This document shows positions 27,359-37,336 of a stretch of 64,000 bases of DNA, piece after piece. The stretch is from positions 372,001-436,000 of the forward strand of contig NZ_CP045246.1 of assembly GCF_035189165.1 (NCBI RefSeq). The letters are read 5' to 3'. The translations under genes were made by a program, and so were the position numbers. The notes below the pieces were generated by a model. It saw only the letters and a list, made by a program, of their open reading frames with translations, had not been told where the DNA came from and did not search any database. Each line of letters starts with the position of its first letter. Positions within the stretch are counted from its first letter, which is position 1. Source of the stretch: Arthrobacter sp. JZ12. GTDB lineage: Bacteria > Actinomycetota > Actinomycetes > Actinomycetales > Micrococcaceae.

Positions 27359-28198
27359 ATGAGTACCTCACCAAACCTGACGTTCAACGACGGCCGCACC
27401 ATCCCGCAACTGGGCTACGGCGTGTGGCAGGTTGACGACGCAACGGCGGAAGACGTCGTCGGGCGCGCCTTCAAGGCGGGCTACCGCCACATCGACACCG
27501 CCAAGATCTACGGCAATGAGGCAGGTGTGGGCCGTGCGATCGCCGCTTCCGGGCTGACGGACGACGAGCTGTTCATCACCACCAAGCTGTGGAACGCCGA
27601 TCAGGGCTACGAGAGCACGCTGGAAGCCTTCGAGGGCTCGATGGAACGGCTCGGCCTCGAGACCCTGGATCTCTACCTGATCCACTGGCTTCAGCCCAAG
27701 CGCGGCAAGTACGTGGACACCTGGAAGGCCCTCATCGAACTGCAGAAGCGCGGACGGGTCCGTTCCATCGGCGTCTCGAACTTCACCGTCGAGGCTCTGC
27801 AGGAAATCATCGACGAGACCGGGGTTGTGCCCGCGATCAACCAGGTGGAAACCCACCCGTACCTGAACCAGGCAGAACTCCGCGCCTTCGAAGCCGAGAA
27901 GGGAATCCTCCACGAGTCCTGGTCACCTCTCGGCTCCGGCAAGGGCCTCCTCGACGACCCTGTGCTGGCTGACATCGCCGAGAAGCGCAACGCCACCCCG
28001 GCACAGGTTGTCCTGGCCTGGCACCTTGCCCTCGGCAGCGTGGTCATTCCCAAGTCCGTGACCGAGTCCCGAATCATCGAGAACTGGGGCGCGCTCGACG
28101 TAACCCTTACCGATGAGGACATCCAGGCCATCAACGCGCTGGACAAGGGCGAGGCAGGCCGTATCGGTGCGAACCCCGCTACCGCGGACTTCGCATAA
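27359..28198 (+). CDS. aldo/keto reductase (AKR5-like)
   Basis: 279-residue NADPH-dependent TIM-barrel reductase resembling 2,5-diketo-D-gluconate reductases. The catalytic tetrad is visible: Asp in GYRHIDTAKIYGNE together with its Tyr, Lys in TTKLW, and His in LIHW. The nucleotide-binding C-terminal segment is VVIPKSVTESRI. AAAGG lies before the ATG. It is followed by a strong terminator, so it ends its own transcription unit. The physiological substrate is unknown. Confidence 0.93.
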   Translation: MSTSPNLTFNDGRTIPQLGYGVWQVDDATAEDVVGRAFKAGYRHIDTAKIYGNEAGVGRAIAASGLTDDELFITTKLWNADQGYESTLEAFEGSMERLGLETLDLYLIHWLQPKRGKYVDTWKALIELQKRGRVRSIGVSNFTVEALQEIIDETGVVPAINQVETHPYLNQAELRAFEAEKGILHESWSPLGSGKGLLDDPVLADIAEKRNATPAQVVLAWHLALGSVVIPKSVTESRIIENWGALDVTLTDEDIQAINALDKGEAGRIGANPATADFA

Positions 28199-28222
28199 GC
28201 CGGAAGCCCCATCCGGAAGTAC

Positions 28223-28267
28223 ATGCACCGCATGCGTTGGATTCAGCGCATGCGGTGCGTTGCTTTT
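28223..28267 (+). terminator. terminator of the aldo/keto reductase gene
   Basis: 12-bp perfect stem (GCACCGCATGCG / CGCATGCGGTGC, arms 28225-28236 and 28247-28258) followed by GTTGCTTTTT. Confidence 0.9.
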
Positions 28268-28302
28268 TCCGGGCACAGCCTTATATGGGCACAATGTTCT
28301 GC

Positions 28303-29367
28303 ATGAGCGGAGACAGCGGGGACCTGAAGGATTCAGTCGACTTCTGGATCGGCGGTTATCAGGCAGAGGGCAGCGAGCCGGGCTCGGGCGAGGGAATCTG
28401 GCGGGTGACGCTCGATGTTCGGAGCGAGCAACTCACCGGCAAGCGGCAGGTCATTACGACGCCGGTTCCCTCCTTCGTTGCACGGCACCCTTCGAAGCCG
28501 GTGCTTTACGCCGTGGCCGAGAGCGACGAGGGCAGCGTGTCGGCCTTCAACATCGCGAACGGCGCCCTGGAACACCTGCTCACGGCGCCGACCGGCGGGT
28601 CCTTCCCCTGTCACCTGCGTGCAACGGCTGATGCGCTGTGGGTGGCCAACTACGGTGACGGCGTTGTCACCCGCTTCAAACTGGACGACGACGGCGTCCC
28701 GACCGGTGATCCCGACGTGCACCGTCACGCAGGTTCGGGCCCCAATAGCGAGCGCCAGGAAGGCCCGCACGCCCACTATGTGCACGACGTCGGTGGCGGC
28801 TCGGTCTGGGTGAGTGACTTGGGCACCGATCAGCTGCGCCGGATCACCTCCGCCGGTGCCGACGGGATTGCTGCAGTGTTGCCGGCGGGCACAGGACCAC
28901 GCCACATGGCCACCCTGCCGGGTGGCGCCGTCGTCGTTGTCGGCGAACTAGACGCACGGCTGCATGTGCTCTCGGCGGACGGAAGGGAAGTTTTACATGC
29001 GGGCCGGCGGGCGCTGGCACAGGATGTGCCGCAGGGAGAGCCCTGCCAGCCATCGCACCTGGCGATGGGAGTTTCCGAAGGTACCCGCAGCCTCCTGTAT
29101 GTGGCGTCCCGTGGTCCGGACGTGCTGTCGGTGTTCGCGGTCGAAGAGGATCAGTCGCTGTCCCATCTGTCTGACACCCACGTTGGCGGTTCCTGGCCGC
29201 GTCACTTCGCGGTGGTGCCGGACAACCGTGGATCAGGGGATCTCGTGCTGGTCGCGAACCAGTACTCGTCCACGCTGGACCTGCTAAGGATGACGCCGGC
29301 AGGGTCTGCCGAGCACGTAACATCCCTGGACTTCGTGGCGCCTTCCTGCGTGCTGCCGGTCACGTAG
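28303..29367 (+). CDS. lactonase-family beta-propeller protein
   Basis: 354-residue protein of the lactonase family (PF10282), which includes cycloisomerase 2/6-phosphogluconolactonase-type seven-bladed propellers. Repeated blade motifs are seen: FWIGGYQAEG, HPSKPVLYAVAESDEGSVSAF, LWVANYGDGVV, GPHAHYVHDV, LYVASRGPDVLSVF and SWPRHFAVVPD. In-frame ATGs occur at 28285, 28294 and 28303; I take the last because the family homology starts just after it and a TATATG element lies about 16 nt upstream. An earlier ATG lies inside the preceding terminator. It may hydrolyse 6-phosphogluconolactone, but paralogues with other roles exist. Confidence 0.85.
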   Translation: MSGDSGDLKDSVDFWIGGYQAEGSEPGSGEGIWRVTLDVRSEQLTGKRQVITTPVPSFVARHPSKPVLYAVAESDEGSVSAFNIANGALEHLLTAPTGGSFPCHLRATADALWVANYGDGVVTRFKLDDDGVPTGDPDVHRHAGSGPNSERQEGPHAHYVHDVGGGSVWVSDLGTDQLRRITSAGADGIAAVLPAGTGPRHMATLPGGAVVVVGELDARLHVLSADGREVLHAGRRALAQDVPQGEPCQPSHLAMGVSEGTRSLLYVASRGPDVLSVFAVEEDQSLSHLSDTHVGGSWPRHFAVVPDNRGSGDLVLVANQYSSTLDLLRMTPAGSAEHVTSLDFVAPSCVLPVT

Positions 29368-32562: not shown

Positions 32563-33144
32563 GTGCATTCAACGCCCTACGTCGCGAACAAGCAGAAGAA
32601 CGGTGAAACGCGGGAAGAATTGAAGGCCCGCATTCCCGGATGGGGGGCAGATCTTGACCCCGCCGACCGGCCGTCGTTCCCGCGGGAGCGGTTCGATCCG
32701 GCGGCTACCGGCGCCCACTGGGACGTGCCGGAACCGCAGCCCGGACGTGAGAACCGGGAACGGTCGATTGAGCACGAAGCTGTTCCGCCGGTGTTCGGTA
32801 CCTCGGTGCCGCTCAAGGGCGCGTCAGGGATGATCCGGCGATATGCCTACTCATCATTCAGCGAGGGACGCGCCGCGCACTGGCTCCTGCTCATCCTCGG
32901 GGACCGGGTCGATGCGTGGGAGAGCCACCTCCGATCCTTCGCGTCAACGAAACCGGACAACCCGATCACAGAGACAGGCATCCTGTCGGAGCCGCGGCGG
33001 CGCGGGCTTGCGTCCCGGTTCGGGGTCGGGAGGTCCGACATCAACCACCAGTGGATTGATCCCCTGATCGTCGGCGGACCATGGGTAGCAGCAGCCGGGG
33101 TGGCCGTGCTCGTGGGCAAGAGGATCGCGAGAAGACGCGCCTAG
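32563..33144 (+). CDS. hypothetical protein with C-terminal membrane helix
   Basis: 193-residue protein: a hydrophilic, proline-rich N-terminal half (MHSTPYVANKQKNGETREELKARIPGWGADLDP shown in part), a central segment YSSFSEGRAAHWLLLILGDRVDAWE, and one C-terminal hydrophobic helix (IVGGPWVAAAGVAVLVG) ending in a basic RIARRRA tail. GGAGGAG lies before the GTG start, inside the end of the dehydrogenase gene, so the pair is likely co-translated. It may anchor or assist the dehydrogenase at the membrane, but that is speculation. It ends 42 nt before the element boundary. Confidence 0.75.
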   Translation: MHSTPYVANKQKNGETREELKARIPGWGADLDPADRPSFPRERFDPAATGAHWDVPEPQPGRENRERSIEHEAVPPVFGTSVPLKGASGMIRRYAYSSFSEGRAAHWLLLILGDRVDAWESHLRSFASTKPDNPITETGILSEPRRRGLASRFGVGRSDINHQWIDPLIVGGPWVAAAGVAVLVGKRIARRRA

Positions 33145-33186
33145 AGTGGACCGGCCAGTGCGGGCACCAGATCCCGGGCACAAAAA

Positions 33187-33233
33187 GAGCCTCCTGCCAG
33201 AATCGAACTGGCGACCTTCTCATTACGAGTGAG
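33187..33233 (+). repeat. left attachment repeat (partial tRNA-Thr copy)
   Basis: 47 nt identical to 35643-35689. It covers the 3' end of tRNA-Thr through the anticodon arm but lacks the 5' half, so it is not a functional tRNA. Identity ends sharply on both sides, as expected for a site-specific recombination core. Confidence 0.95.
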
Positions 33234-33273
33234 GTTGTTTCCCTCGGTGAGCTCTGGGGATTTCCCCGCAGAA

Positions 33274-33289
33274 GTGACGAAAAAGTGAC
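33274..33289 (+). repeat. left arm-type repeat GTGACGAAAAAGTGAC
   Basis: 16-bp sequence, itself GTGAC-N6-GTGAC, found identically and in the same orientation at 35521-35536. It is 40 nt inside the left core. Paired internal repeats near both ends are typical arm-binding sites of tyrosine recombinases. Confidence 0.6.
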
Positions 33290-33455
33290 ATAGCACCTTT
33301 GGAACTGACTCCTATGACAGGGAATGTCACAGCTCGAGCCTTGGTTCTGGACGAGCTCAGCAGGAGCCGTTCCCGCCGTTAGACTGGCTTTCTCGGCAGC
33401 GAATCAATTGCGCGGGCGTGGGGACAAGTACCGAAGAGTAGTAACGGGGGATTCA

Positions 33456-34106
33456 GTGGCTACGAATAAGTGCGGATGGTGTGGCACTTTCACGCATATG
33501 ACACCGTACGGGACGGCTCAGATTACGGCTACCCCGGAAAGTTATATCGTCGAGGGCGTGTTCCGATGCGATGAATGCCGACGGTTGAGCATCGGTTCAG
33601 GTTCCTACCTTCAGCGCCCAGGTGGTCAAGACGCCGTGAACATGAGCGATTTCTGGATTACGCAGAAGCCCGATGTATGGGCACCCCAGTACGTTGAGGG
33701 ACAAGCCCCTGCAGATGTTCCGCAAGCCATTGCCAAAGCGGCTGGTGAAGCTCACCGTGGACACAGCATCGGGAACTACATGTCGGCCATCCTGATGGCT
33801 CGCACAGTTATTGAGGCCACAGCCAAGGACAAGGGGATCGGTGTGCGCGGCCTCCAGCCGAAGATTGAGGAACTTCGCGCGCGGGAGTTCATCCGTGAGC
33901 ATGTCAAAGAGGAAGCGCATGAGATTCGCCACTTCGGCAACGACATGGCGCACGGCGACTTGGACATACCGGTTGTAGAGGAGGACTCGGCGGAAGTGCT
34001 GACTCTTATGGACGAGATACTCAACGAGGTCTACCAAAGTCCTGCCAGGCTGGCTGCCGCTCGCGAACGTCGCTTAGCCCGTCGCGACATCGGCTCTCAC
34101 GCATGA
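33456..34106 (+). CDS. DUF4145-type protein with N-terminal zinc-binding cysteines
   Basis: 216-residue cargo protein of the element. Near the N-terminus are two CxxC pairs, CGWC and CDEC, that could hold zinc. The C-terminal half has the DUF4145 pattern: MARTVIEATAKDKGIG, LQPKIEELRAREFI, then HEIRHFGNDMAHGDLD. DUF4145 modules occur in restriction enzymes and other defence-associated proteins, but their activity is not established. I choose the GTG at 33456 (GGGGG 7 nt before); the frame is open another 44 codons upstream into the element end, without support. It overlaps the next gene by ATGA. Base composition is less G/C-rich than neighbours, consistent with transfer. Confidence 0.8.
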   Translation: MATNKCGWCGTFTHMTPYGTAQITATPESYIVEGVFRCDECRRLSIGSGSYLQRPGGQDAVNMSDFWITQKPDVWAPQYVEGQAPADVPQAIAKAAGEAHRGHSIGNYMSAILMARTVIEATAKDKGIGVRGLQPKIEELRAREFIREHVKEEAHEIRHFGNDMAHGDLDIPVVEEDSAEVLTLMDEILNEVYQSPARLAAARERRLARRDIGSHA

Positions 34107-34459
34107 ACGTCGAGGTAGCGTCTCTACTTGCTCAGGTCATACCTGTATTTGTGGTTCTCATCAATGTGGAAGCCGCCTTCGTCGATCTCTCGTCGATGAG
34201 GTTATGGTTGCGACGGGTCATCGTCCTCGTCAGATGGGTTCTAACGGGATTTGGGCTCACGGCTGTGGTTGTTTGTGTTCACCGCGTGTATCGGGGCGAT
34301 CGTAATCATGTCTCGGGACTTATTGAGTTCAACGAAGTCGCAGCCATGTACGCCTTCCTTGGACTTGTGATTTTCTCCTTTCTGATGTTGTTCGCCGTTC
34401 ATTCCCGCGAAGCCAAGAAGCTTAGCCGTGGCGCTGAAAAATTTGGGTCATTGGAGTAA
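34103..34459 (+). CDS. three-helix membrane protein of the element
   Basis: 118-residue protein with three predicted membrane helices: about 5-27 (VASLLAQVIPVFVVLINVEA), 38-60 (VIVLVRWVLTGFGLTAVVVCV in part) and 81-100 (AAMYAFLGLVIFSFLMLFA). A short charged loop (HRVYRGDRNH) separates helices 2 and 3, and the C-terminus is basic (EAKKLSRGAEKF). The start overlaps the stop of the DUF4145 gene, so translation is coupled and the two products likely act together. I recognise no family. Membrane proteins paired with a soluble sensor are common in abortive-infection systems, but no such role is shown here. Confidence 0.78.
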   Translation: MNVEVASLLAQVIPVFVVLINVEAAFVDLSSMRLWLRRVIVLVRWVLTGFGLTAVVVCVHRVYRGDRNHVSGLIEFNEVAAMYAFLGLVIFSFLMLFAVHSREAKKLSRGAEKFGSLE

Positions 34460-34515
34460 GGCGACTTGCTTAAGGGCTAGCGCCCCCGACTGGTGCAAAC
34501 GCGTGGGTAAGTCGT

Positions 34516-34540
34516 AGAAGGTGGCTCAAGCTCACCTTCT
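34516..34540. terminator. possible hairpin between convergent element genes
   Basis: 8-bp stem AGAAGGTG / CACCTTCT with a 9-nt loop between the membrane protein gene and the integrase gene. It lacks a U-tract on either strand, so function is doubtful. Confidence 0.3.
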
Positions 34541-34570
34541 CGCCTCAACTGTGGATCTTGCTCGGGTCTC

Positions 34571-35545
34571 TCAAGCCCACCCGTTAAGTGTGATGGTGTC
34601 ATTCAGGCGGCTCGCGCTATCGTGCAGGTCGTCATCAAAAAGCCCAGCGTAGGTGTCGAGCGTCATGGTTGCGGAGGCATGGCCAGCTATTCGTTGAACG
34701 ACCTTCACGTTGGCACCAGCACTGATGGCTAGACTCACCGCAGTGTGGCGCAGGTCGTGGAAAGTTGGACGGGGGAAGGTGGGATCAGCTTCGGTTACGG
34801 TAGCGATGGCACGGGCGTAGTGCCGTCGAGTCCAAGTGTTATTCCGCATCACCGAGCCTTGCGGACTGCTGAACAGTCGCTGGCCGGGGGAGCGGGTGGA
34901 AACCAGTTCTGCAACTCGATCGGCGAGTATCCGAGGAACGGGAACCACTCGCTTCTCCCCACCTTTCGTGGGTCCAAGAAGTAGCTTTCCTCCAACCTCT
35001 ACATATGCCTTCGTGATAGCGATGGAAGGACGATCTCCTATTCGCACGTCTTCGGCAACGAGCGCAGTGATCTCACCCCATCGAAGCCCGCATGTTCCAG
35101 CGAGCATTATGAACAAGGAATGCTTACCGGATGCGAGGGCGAGCGATACCAACTGCGGCATGGTTAGGTAGACATGCTCTCGCAATTTTTGCTTTCCCGG
35201 TACGTAATCGGTACTGCCAGTCGGATCCTTGGTGGGATTGGTTGGCAGCAGTCTGCGCTTCACGGCGAAACCCATTAGTCGCCCGAATAACAGTGCGACC
35301 TCGCGGCGCGTCGTGACGCCGGCTGCTCGACCGTCTCGCCCTTTAAGCTGAGAGATCCAGGACGCGGTGTCGTCATAGGACACGTTGGTGAGAACCGTCG
35401 CTCCCCAGCGGGGACGCACATAATTGCGGTAGAAGCGCGCGTAGTTGTCCACCGTCTTGGGGCTTGCGGCCTTGCGACCGGTAGCACCGCTGGTGCGCGA
35501 TCGTGGTGGCGTTGCTTGAGGTGACGAAAAAGTGACGGCCTTCAA
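34571..35545 (-). CDS. tyrosine recombinase/integrase, N-terminally short
   Basis: 324 residues from the only plausible start between the attachment core and the core-binding domain (a TTG); the next in-frame candidate is the GTG at 35452. The core-binding domain begins SPKTVDNYARFYRNYVRP. The catalytic domain holds all key residues: Arg in GLRWGEI, Lys in TKGGEKRVV, HDLRH, His in AGHAS and the Tyr nucleophile in LDTYAG. The N-terminal arm-binding domain usual in such integrases is not recognisable. The frame is open to 35761 through the tRNA, which is an artefact of reading tRNA sequence. It is transcribed in the same direction as the tRNA. Confidence 0.85.
   Translation of the reverse strand: MKAVTFSSPQATPPRSRTSGATGRKAASPKTVDNYARFYRNYVRPRWGATVLTNVSYDDTASWISQLKGRDGRAAGVTTRREVALLFGRLMGFAVKRRLLPTNPTKDPTGSTDYVPGKQKLREHVYLTMPQLVSLALASGKHSLFIMLAGTCGLRWGEITALVAEDVRIGDRPSIAITKAYVEVGGKLLLGPTKGGEKRVVPVPRILADRVAELVSTRSPGQRLFSSPQGSVMRNNTWTRRHYARAIATVTEADPTFPRPTFHDLRHTAVSLAISAGANVKVVQRIAGHASATMTLDTYAGLFDDDLHDSASRLNDTITLNGWA
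35521..35536 (+). repeat. right arm-type repeat GTGACGAAAAAGTGAC
   Basis: Identical to 33274-33289 in the same orientation, 106 nt inside the right core. It lies at the 5' edge of the integrase reading frame. Confidence 0.6.
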
Positions 35546-35642
35546 GGGAAAGAGGGGGAGTATGAGATACCCGAACGGCGGGCCTGCATGATGGGCGATA
35601 TGAAAAACCCCCGGTAACTCAACGGTTCCGAGGGGCTTCGCG

Positions 35643-35689
35643 GAGCCTCCTGCCAGAATCGAACTGGCGACCTTCTCATTACGAGTGAG
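35643..35689 (+). repeat. right attachment repeat within tRNA-Thr
   Basis: 47 nt identical to 33187-33233, here forming the 3' part of the intact tRNA-Thr. Integration therefore regenerated a complete tRNA on this side. Confidence 0.95.
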
Positions 35690-35716
35690 ACGCTCTACCG
35701 ACTGAGCTAAGGAGGC
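35644..35716 (-). tRNA. tRNA-Thr(CGU)
   Basis: 73-nt cloverleaf. Acceptor strands GCCTCCT / AGGAGGC pair fully, the anticodon loop CTCGTAA gives CGU, and the T-arm is GCCAGTTCGATTCTGGC. CCA is not encoded. It is the integration target of the 2.5-kb element; its original 3' flank is now at about 33186. Confidence 0.97.
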
Positions 35717-35794
35717 TGGTTGCGGGTGATTCCCGTGATCGGGCCTCATTCCACAAGGCACAACTGTATAAGAGCCTGAGCTCAGCGGTCAAAA

Positions 35795-37336
35795 TCAGCA
35801 GCGCGCGCCGTCGTCGGGCATTGTGCCCTCCACCAGGAAGCCATCCACGATGTTGTCGATGCAGGAGCCGGCGCGGCCATAGGCCGTGTGGCCTTCTCCC
35901 TCCCAGGTGACGTGGACGGCCGATTCGAGCTGCTCAGCCAGGGCCACCGACCATTCGTAAGGAGTAGCCGGGTCGCCGGTTGTTCCGATCACGAGGATGG
36001 GCGGCGCGCCCGGAGCGCTCACGGGTGCAGGCTCATGGACCGGCTTATGCGGCCAGTTCTCGCAGGACACTGCTCCGTAGCTCAGGTACTCGCCGAACAC
36101 CGGGGACAGCTTCTCCAGCTCTGCCGCCTGTTGGTCCATCTCCGCGGGTTCCGCGGACATCGGGTAGTCCAGGCAGTTGATGGCGGTGAAGGCTGCCGAT
36201 GAGTTGTTGGAGTAGGTTCCGTCCTGCTCGCGTCCGGCGCTGAGATCAGCGATCCGGAGAATGTCGCTTGGATCGCCCTGCAGCACCCGGGTAAGTGCGC
36301 CGGTGAGCGCAGGCCAGCTCTTGCTCTCGTACAGCGGATACACGAATCCCTGGAATAGCGTGCCTACCGTCACGAGCCGGCCGTCATTGGCGGTCATGGG
36401 GCTCTCTTCCACCGACTCGAACAGTTCGTCGACGACGGCGACGCCCTCCTCCACGTCTCCCGGCAGGGGACACTCGCTGCTTGTCTGGCAGTCGGCGACG
36501 TAGCTGCGCAGCGCCGCATCGAAGCCGCGCACCTGGCCTTCCGTGATCTCCGCGGCGCTGAGGGACGGATCCATTGCGCCGTCGAGCACGAAGCGTCCCA
36601 CCTTCTCGGGGAAGAGGCCGGCATACGTTGCTCCCAGCATGGTTCCGTAGGAGAAGCCCATGTAGTTCAGCTTCTCGTCACCCACCAGTGCGCGGAGGAT
36701 ATCGAGGTCTTTCGTTGCGCTGACGGTGTCCACGTAGGCGAGCACTTCGCCGGTCCGCTCAGCGCACAGCTGGGCGAACTCCGCGGAATCCGCCTCGAGG
36801 ATTTCGAGCGCTTCAGCGTCCGTGGCGTCCGGCGGGAACGTTTCTTCGCGCGCCTTGTCGCGCTCCTCATCCGTCAGGCACTCCACGGGCGCCGATCGCT
36901 GCACCCCCCGGGGATCGAAGCCGACCAGATCGTAGGACTGACGGAGCAGGCCGCTGAACTTCTGGGATCCCAACTGGACCAGGTCGTAGCCCGACACGCC
37001 GGGGCCGCCGGGATTCACCAGCAGGGAACCCTGAGCGTCACCCGAGGACTCCAACCGGACGGCGGCAATCTCGATCGACTCCCGGCCCGGGTCGTTGTAA
37101 TCCAGCGGCACCTCAACGTTGGCGCAGGTGAAGCCGTCCTCGCATTCCTCCCAGGTGACTTCCTGCTCGTAGAACTCGCGGAGGTTCTGAGGCACTTCAC
37201 CGATAGCCTCAGGTGGAGCGGTAGCCGTGCCGGTGTCCGCTCCGCCCGGCACGCAGCCGGACAGCAGCAAACCGACGACGGCGGCGGCGACCACCCCGCG
37301 CGGGGCGCGGAGGCGTCCGGGGGAAGATGCAGTCAC
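35795..37336 (-). CDS. secreted alpha/beta-hydrolase lipoprotein, tripeptidyl aminopeptidase-like
   Basis: 513-residue exported hydrolase of the TAP-like family, likely releasing N-terminal peptides outside the membrane. The N-terminus carries a lipoprotein signal with lipobox LLSGC. The nucleophile Ser is in YMGFSYGTMLGA, the oxyanion region in NPGGPGVSGYD, and the C-terminal TAP-like domain supplies Asp (GTTGDPATP) and His (EGEGHTAYG). Its start overlaps the holB stop by 4 nt, so it is the third gene of tmk-holB-TAP. The pairing with replication genes is conserved in related actinobacteria to my knowledge but functionally unexplained. Confidence 0.9.
   Translation of the reverse strand: MTASSPGRLRAPRGVVAAAVVGLLLSGCVPGGADTGTATAPPEAIGEVPQNLREFYEQEVTWEECEDGFTCANVEVPLDYNDPGRESIEIAAVRLESSGDAQGSLLVNPGGPGVSGYDLVQLGSQKFSGLLRQSYDLVGFDPRGVQRSAPVECLTDEERDKAREETFPPDATDAEALEILEADSAEFAQLCAERTGEVLAYVDTVSATKDLDILRALVGDEKLNYMGFSYGTMLGATYAGLFPEKVGRFVLDGAMDPSLSAAEITEGQVRGFDAALRSYVADCQTSSECPLPGDVEEGVAVVDELFESVEESPMTANDGRLVTVGTLFQGFVYPLYESKSWPALTGALTRVLQGDPSDILRIADLSAGREQDGTYSNNSSAAFTAINCLDYPMSAEPAEMDQQAAELEKLSPVFGEYLSYGAVSCENWPHKPVHEPAPVSAPGAPPILVIGTTGDPATPYEWSVALAEQLESAVHVTWEGEGHTAYGRAGSCIDNIVDGFLVEGTMPDDGARC

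Follow-up and report, generated by a model that had tools for sequence, protein, structure and literature searches.

A 2.46-kb element in the tRNA-Thr(CGT) gene of Arthrobacter sp. JZ12, probably a stripped derivative of larger Micrococcaceae integrative elements

Introduction

If an element integrated in a tRNA gene carries little more than one recombinase gene, is it a minimal but self-sufficient mobile element, or the remainder of a larger one? The question is raised by a 2.46-kb element of Arthrobacter sp. JZ12, found in a stretch of 64,000 nucleotides (contig NZ_CP045246.1, positions 372,001 to 436,000; hereafter the window, to which coordinates refer unless a contig or locus is named). 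An earlier note on this DNA had described perfect 47-bp repeats of the 3' part of tRNA-Thr enclosing a tyrosine recombinase and two overlapping genes, and had likened the element to cassettes carried by a recombinase alone. The repeats and gene content are as described. However, comparison of the sequence with that of other Micrococcaceae favours reduction from a family of 7-12 kb elements over an autonomous minimal state, because the integrase lacks its N-terminal region and a search of the same genome revealed no further integrase of that family. Overall, we put at about two in three the probability that it belongs, as a non-autonomous remnant or passenger, to a family of integrative elements that target tRNA genes in the Micrococcaceae. 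This reading is based on an empty site in a genome of the same genus, eight complete relatives, a left-arm spacing that is identical in the four genomes matching a composite of att core and left arm, and the truncation of the integrase, together with the lack of an HNH-cluster gene that seven of the eight relatives carry and the presence of defence genes in seven of them.

Boundaries and insertion site

The element is bounded by two copies of a 47-bp direct repeat that are identical at 47/47 positions and spaced by 2456 bp. The first attachment (att) copy, attL, lies on the minus strand at the element-distal end (33187-33233). The second, attR (35643-35689), is the 3' part of an intact tRNA-Thr(CGT) gene on the minus strand (35642-35716; ARAGORN; Rfam tRNA score 72.6 bits). 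Between the repeats lie a gene for a DUF4145 protein, an overlapping gene for a 118-aa protein, and a Phage_integrase gene on the minus strand. In 500-base windows the G+C content is about 0.54-0.61 inside the element and 0.60-0.70 in the flanks. With at most one mismatch allowed, the 3.3-Mb genome contains exactly two copies of an arm-like 16-bp site, GTGACGAAAAAGTGAC, one near each end of the element; the reversed pattern, used as a control, occurred 0 times. The left arm-type site (33274-33289, plus strand) is 87 bp from the outer edge of attL. The right one (35521-35536, plus strand) is 122 bp inside the tRNA-side repeat, abuts the integrase fragment and is read into its frame. Both arm sites and both att repeats are intact.

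The claim that this is a site-specific integrative element in tRNA-Thr is borne out by an empty site in a genome of the same genus (G024), in which the two flanks are contiguous across a single 47-bp copy that is 46/47 identical (matches at C12:26297-27603 and 27557-28773, the flanks having been joined computationally). Additionally, the left-flank letters GGGCACAAAAAG adjoin the intact tRNA in three genomes (G022, G034 and G017), and thus the left flank in the window is the sequence that originally lay downstream of the tRNA. The GGGCACAAAAAG point is separated from the shared left-flank genes in G022 by about 0.95 kb of other sequence. The tRNA-Thr site was compared in 36 of 37 same-genus genomes (G023 was left out), and no second tRNA copy was seen at 35 of the 36, the available stretch being short in a few (for example L053 and L057); only Arthrobacter sp. 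H5 differs. In the JZ12 genome the complete element occurs a single time, two further matches being short and corresponding to the tRNA part, and it was found nowhere else among the plasmid records and 196 genomes searched. Only two plasmid records share DNA similarity with it, covering 2% of the query at the tRNA end.

A family of larger elements in the Micrococcaceae

When the integrase was searched against 395 Micrococcaceae genomes, 43 of them, that of JZ12 among them, had a match of E 1e-40 or better. Complete relatives were sought in stretches taken from the closest integrase matches, with heuristic picking of open reading frames (ORFs), and eight were found, of 7.2-12.1 kb. Six are in tRNA-Thr(CGT) (L105, L055, L158, L159, L161 and L163) and two in tRNA-Arg(CCT) (L164 and L165); they include the elements of Arthrobacter sp. 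zg-Y844 (L105, 7.6 kb) and Arthrobacter sp. H5 (L055, 11.9 kb). Not counted among the eight were L160 and L162, whose integrases belong to the family but which show no tRNA end within the sequence taken; L166-L168, which are in tRNA-Arg(TCT) with integrases of 41-44% identity, L167 having a 43-bp repeat without a matching arm site; and L109, in which the integrase gene is in two pieces. Integrase identity between the window and the family of the relatives is 47-76%.

All eight relatives share one plan, which in the orientation of the window reads att copy, left arm, an integrase gene directed towards that arm, other genes, right arm and intact tRNA. The arm site near each end is in all eight the one found in the window or a variant of it with 0-3 mismatches. 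In six of them the integrase stop lies 3-9 bp beyond the left arm, the frame running through or into the arm in L163 and L164, and in none is there a gene between integrase and left arm. The composite of att core and left arm was found in four of the 395 genomes, own included, always with a total length of 73 bp.

By ORF clustering, the relatives carry an HNH-type cluster (7/8, not H5), an excisionase-like HTH_17 cluster (6/8, not zg-Y844 or H5) and a serine resolvase cluster (5/8). When one or two members of each cluster were checked against Pfam, HNH_3 was matched twice, the resolvase was clear, and HTH_17 scored 26.9 bits against a cut-off of 27; the HTH_17 protein also matched an excisionase family of PHROGs (E 0.0007). 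Neither an HNH-cluster nor an HTH_17-cluster gene is among the ORFs of the window element. Defence genes were recognised in seven of the eight, six by direct scan, so that other cargo is indeed found at the same kind of repeats, as the earlier note had proposed to check. The direct scan identified Type ISP restriction enzymes in L055, L158 and L161 (with a NACHT protein additionally in L158), a NotI-like enzyme and a C5 methylase in L163, a GmrSD_N/SLFN protein in L165 and a PDC-M02 pair in L105. The seventh, L159, was assigned by clustering: it has a protein of the Type ISP cluster that was not itself scanned. In L164, the sole candidate scanned gave no match. No conjugation family was found among the 20 relative proteins scanned with Pfam, many ORFs of the relatives lying outside that scan, and no description of these 7-12 kb elements was found among the titles and abstract openings of the open-access literature searched.

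In the zg-Y844 element a further tyrosine recombinase is encoded (L105:4659-5570), which has a SAM-like domain at its N terminus, and an ORF of its cluster is present in L159 and L161 too.

The truncated integrase and the gene order

The integrase gene (34571-35545, minus strand), delimited by Pfam and by alignment with ten homologues, encodes the catalytic domain and most of the core-binding region. The recombinase gene reported in the earlier note is present; what that description missed, and what is visible only by alignment with relatives, is that it is truncated at its 5' end. The protein can be aligned from the motif GATGRK, which corresponds to residue 77 of the 381-aa zg-Y844 form. Residues 1-76 have no counterpart, although this N-terminal region is present in all ten homologues, and tblastn with the missing part gave no match better than E 2.1 in 33001-36000. 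The frame is open upstream through the right arm site, and its nearest in-frame start is a TTG at 35545, before which no convincing Shine-Dalgarno sequence was seen by eye. The remaining protein matches PF00589 (E 1e-16), and the catalytic R, K, HxxR and Tyr are all kept in the alignment.

Carriage by the recombinase alone, as had been suggested, found no support, given the absent N-terminal region and the failure to find another integrase of the family. The genome holds five PF00589 matches, and no second integrase of this family was detected at E 1e-40 (5/7 candidates scored). The arm-binding domain is termed essential for the mobility function of such integrases in one survey (PMC8138268). 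Separately, a short Phage_integrase match in a 128-aa open frame of the same genome, outside the window (C1:679989-680234), is probably another truncated integrase.

The fragment groups with the integrase of zg-Y844 (76% identity; support 93/93, just under the star of the tool). It is slightly less like all nine outgroups than zg-Y844 is (0.465-0.690 versus 0.502-0.703), with an end branch of 0.22 compared to 0.17. More distant matches were found in 1050 phage and 91 plasmid records, nearly all below 60% identity. Relatives in pieces occur elsewhere. In Arthrobacter mobilis (L109:8266-9375) the two pieces have 32% and 75% identity, which suggests a mosaic or frame-shifted gene; in Arthrobacter sp. 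Bi26 (L107:1951-5428) about 2.6 kb separate the pieces, as though an insertion had split the gene.

The gene order also departs from that of the relatives. Between the integrase stop and the left arm of the window element lie 1.28 kb with the two cargo genes, where all eight relatives have nothing, and there is nothing between the right arm and codon 77 of the integrase. No 8-mers are shared at the rearrangement junctions except the arm sites themselves. A relic of a left arm beside the integrase stop was sought, and the only candidate, a site with five mismatches at 34531 within a hairpin, was not counted.

Several observations weigh against the reading as a non-autonomous remnant or passenger with a defence cargo. 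A single deletion from the ancestral order would not put the cargo where it is, and two or more events seem to be required. Nor does the integrase fragment show plain decay: it has neither stop nor frameshift, its catalytic residues are intact, and it departs at only one of 94 columns that are invariant in the other ten sequences. Its ratio of nonsynonymous to synonymous differences per site (pN/pS) is 0.22 against zg-Y844 and 0.22-0.40 over seven pairs with the window sequence, compared to 0.08-0.38 for other pairs, with synonymous sites mostly saturated. Since the fragment is open, constrained and little changed, the sequence comparisons would fit a recent truncation or a short protein that is still useful, and the data do not favour either. 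Pfam recognises the N-terminal region of the relatives only weakly as arm-binding (E 0.12 for zg-Y844, none for L158). The excisionase-like HTH_17 cluster is likewise absent from zg-Y844, the closest relative, and thus its absence here says little. Finally, the cargo genes match no defence family in PADLOC (best E 0.026).

The cargo genes

The first cargo gene (33456-34106, plus strand) encodes, from a GTG with GGGGGA before it, a 216-aa zinc-ribbon protein; the longest possible ORF extends back to 33324. This longer ORF matches PF13643 (DUF4145) with E 5.9e-14 and 52.3 bits, against a curated cut-off of 23.1. In 31 aligned sequences C6, C9, C38, C41, R158, G161, N162 and H166 are invariant. 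A structure model has a mean predicted local distance difference test score (pLDDT) of 92.7 and a predicted template modelling score (pTM) of 0.73. Its residues 86-200 align best with HEPN proteins: 2hsb at Z 13.9 (root-mean-square deviation 2.8, 113 aligned), followed by MntA-HepT (12.5), Csm6 (9.8) and AbiV (8.6), on a scale on which unrelated helical bundles can reach about 13. Foldseek gave 2hsb a probability of 1.00 with E 0.016, and no match at 0.001. A sequence search of the PDB with the DUF4145 profile returned a designed protein (E 0.01) and a chain named DUF4145 (9y9c, E 0.2), neither of them convincing. The protein is thus predicted from the model to have a HEPN fold, and a fold of this kind does not by itself show a function. 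R158 and H166 are separated by seven residues, one more than in the published Rx4-6H range; that the protein is competent as a ribonuclease (RNase) is likely, not certain.

DUF4145 homologues were found in 15 of the 395 Micrococcaceae genomes, own included (E 0.001 or better, the weakest partial), in 7 of 72,556 plasmid records and in none of 50,697 phage records. The gene is present on 34 IMG/VR contigs (L169-L202), with 28-54% identity in the 31-row alignment. These encode the same two-domain protein but in viral contigs, whereas the gene in the window is cargo of a small tRNA element. DUF4145 is recurrent in viral contigs, the family being one that turns up repeatedly in actinobacterial prophages, and HNH- or terminase-like genes were seen by eye close by in several. 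One homologue, in G465 (L115:8665-12519), lies in a 3.8-kb stretch with a 40-bp, 95% tRNA-Arg(TCT) repeat at its bounds, an HNH-like gene by eye, other genes and no obvious integrase among the ORFs; this stretch is perhaps a prophage remnant.

The second cargo gene (34103-34459, plus strand) overlaps the first by 4 nt and encodes a 118-aa protein with three hydrophobic stretches. No family was found for it in Pfam, PADLOC or PHROGs, and no match among plasmids. It has matches in 3 of the 395 genomes, own included, the other two being weak, and blastp gave no match to five proteins encoded near other DUF4145 genes. An overlapping same-strand partner of membrane type is present at 0 of 29 viral DUF4145 loci, one of which (L190) has such a gene 51 nt downstream. 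Among the 14 bacterial loci listed, only L120 has an overlapping pair.

By analogy, the cargo is likely an RNase-type antiphage device, a role suggested by its family, its company and the type of element that carries it. DUF4145 has been placed in the HEPN superfamily, with zinc-ribbon and transmembrane (TM) fusions and occurrence in operons with restriction systems (PMC3710099), and BxaP, a DUF4145-containing protein, has been reported as an anti-T4 defence protein (PMC10799925). The protein encoded in the window resembles these in its PF13643 match, the predicted HEPN fold and the conserved R and H, and its zinc ribbon is of a kind reported among DUF4145 fusions. Unlike the TM fusions described in the former source, its membrane-type partner is a separate gene, and BxaP, described in the latter as BREX-associated, differs from it in the C-terminal part.

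Alternative explanations

The cargo could instead be a toxin-antitoxin or addiction pair, a HEPN toxin with a membrane antitoxin, that stabilises the element and has no part in phage defence. The folds closest to the model include HEPN toxins from HEPN/MNT pairs, and the overlap of the two genes suggests coupled translation, yet DUF4145 genes mostly lack such a partner, as the viral and bacterial loci above indicate. We consider this explanation rather unlikely, while giving it some weight.

Another view is that the element is a frozen, decaying scar, neither autonomous nor mobilisable, whose cargo is selected (or not) as a chromosomal pair. It would account for the failure to find another family integrase in the host and for the occurrence of the element in one searched genome only. 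However, the repeats and arm sites are perfect and the integrase fragment is open, which suggests that decay has had little time to act and leaves the scar an improbable account.

Alternatively, the element could be autonomous and minimal, its shortened integrase acting as a simple recombinase without an arm-binding domain. Such enzymes exist in mobile genetic elements, having been reported from 27 phages and 12 integrative and conjugative elements (ICEs) (PMC8138268). The open frame, intact catalytic residues and little-reduced constraint of the integrase, as well as the perfect arm sites and att repeats, would also be expected. Against this, the missing residues seem, from the alignment and inferred domain limits, to take in the start of the core-binding domain. 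All ten aligned homologues keep the N-terminal region, no convincing ribosome-binding site precedes the TTG, and arm sites would be pointless for an enzyme that cannot bind them. Autonomy is therefore quite doubtful.

A tandem duplication of the tRNA unrelated to the recombinase can be dismissed almost with certainty: a short tRNA-end copy without a recombinase does lie about 1 kb from tRNA-Thr in Arthrobacter sp. Bi26, but the empty site in G024 and the eight relatives, with the same integrase family within tRNA 3' copies and arm sites at matching distances, rule it out here, and no relatives with the same genes but without repeats were found. A phage satellite of the phage-inducible chromosomal island (PICI) or P4 type was also rejected, as no capsid-hijacking, packaging or helper-dependent replication genes were recognised in the element; only the integrase fragment, the DUF4145 protein and the membrane-type protein were.

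Proposed working and relation to known systems

If the element is a stripped derivative, its working may be pictured as follows. In a full-length element, as judged from the integrase family, the N-terminal domain of the integrase would bind the arm sites while strands are exchanged in the tRNA core. The window element has the sites required in cis but not that region of the integrase, and its own truncated integrase is probably unable to excise or insert it. The integrase of a full-length relative, with any excision factor needed, could in principle move it in trans. Its most likely state would be integrated and quiet, with mobilisation only upon entry of such a relative into the cell. Once triggered, the zinc-ribbon HEPN protein would, by prediction, act on RNA and so protect the host against phage, the small membrane protein serving as its putative partner, sensor or brake. 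A bolder version, in which a 2.46-kb minimal defence cassette moves between strains with an integrase borrowed from relatives in the same tRNA, as a tyrosine-recombinase counterpart of miniature inverted-repeat transposable elements (MITEs), we regard as unlikely.

The element resembles full-length members of the family, such as those of zg-Y844 and H5, in its target (tRNA-Thr in 6/8), att repeat, type of arm site, left-arm spacing and integrase family. Unlike it, these keep the N-terminal region of the integrase, end the integrase gene at the left arm, carry the HNH cluster (7/8) and the HTH_17 cluster (6/8), and have a larger cargo between integrase and right arm. In comparison to cis-mobilizable elements (CIMEs), as they are described in PMC5704250, it similarly has att sites at both ends and no transfer genes, and its integration function is probably lost or crippled, and mobilisation only with a full-length relative is the behaviour described there. 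In contrast to them, it retains a catalytic integrase fragment that is open and constrained; moreover, the class as defined in that text rests on descent from ICEs or integrative and mobilizable elements (IMEs) with transfer genes, while the relatives here are integrative elements not shown to be either. By this analogy, it is probably a derivative of the cis-mobilizable type, immobile on its own.

Each ingredient is of a known kind, be it an integrative element in a tRNA gene, a decayed derivative bounded by att sites or a HEPN defence gene. What seems new is the combination of a family of elements with swapped defence cargo and a 2.46-kb derivative that keeps both its att and its arm sites, although the part of its integrase that would recognise the arms is gone. 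The element illustrates how small a defence-carrying tRNA element can be and still survive, and it defines candidate cis parts, namely a tRNA core of 43-47 bp and a 16-bp arm site at fixed spacing. The 7-12 kb family of the Micrococcaceae combines one integrase with different defence systems that replace one another. Should the window copy prove to be still mobile in trans, it would offer a clean case in which to study passengers that depend on the tyrosine integrase of another element, and its cargo is a compact DUF4145/HEPN candidate for phage-defence assays.

Other observations

Directly downstream of the tRNA, a terminator-like hairpin and T run (35602-35635, minus strand), supplied by the element, was seen by eye in the sequence. 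It was not among the results of the terminator scan, and both the promoter and the terminator scans gave results at chance level.

The copy mentioned above in Arthrobacter sp. Bi26 (L106:3768-4863) repeats 34 bp of the 3' end of tRNA-Thr at 97% identity, roughly 1 kb away from the intact gene. The stretch has neither an integrase match nor an arm site, and the coding sequence that it encloses is leucine-rich-repeat-like by eye; it is perhaps another stripped element.

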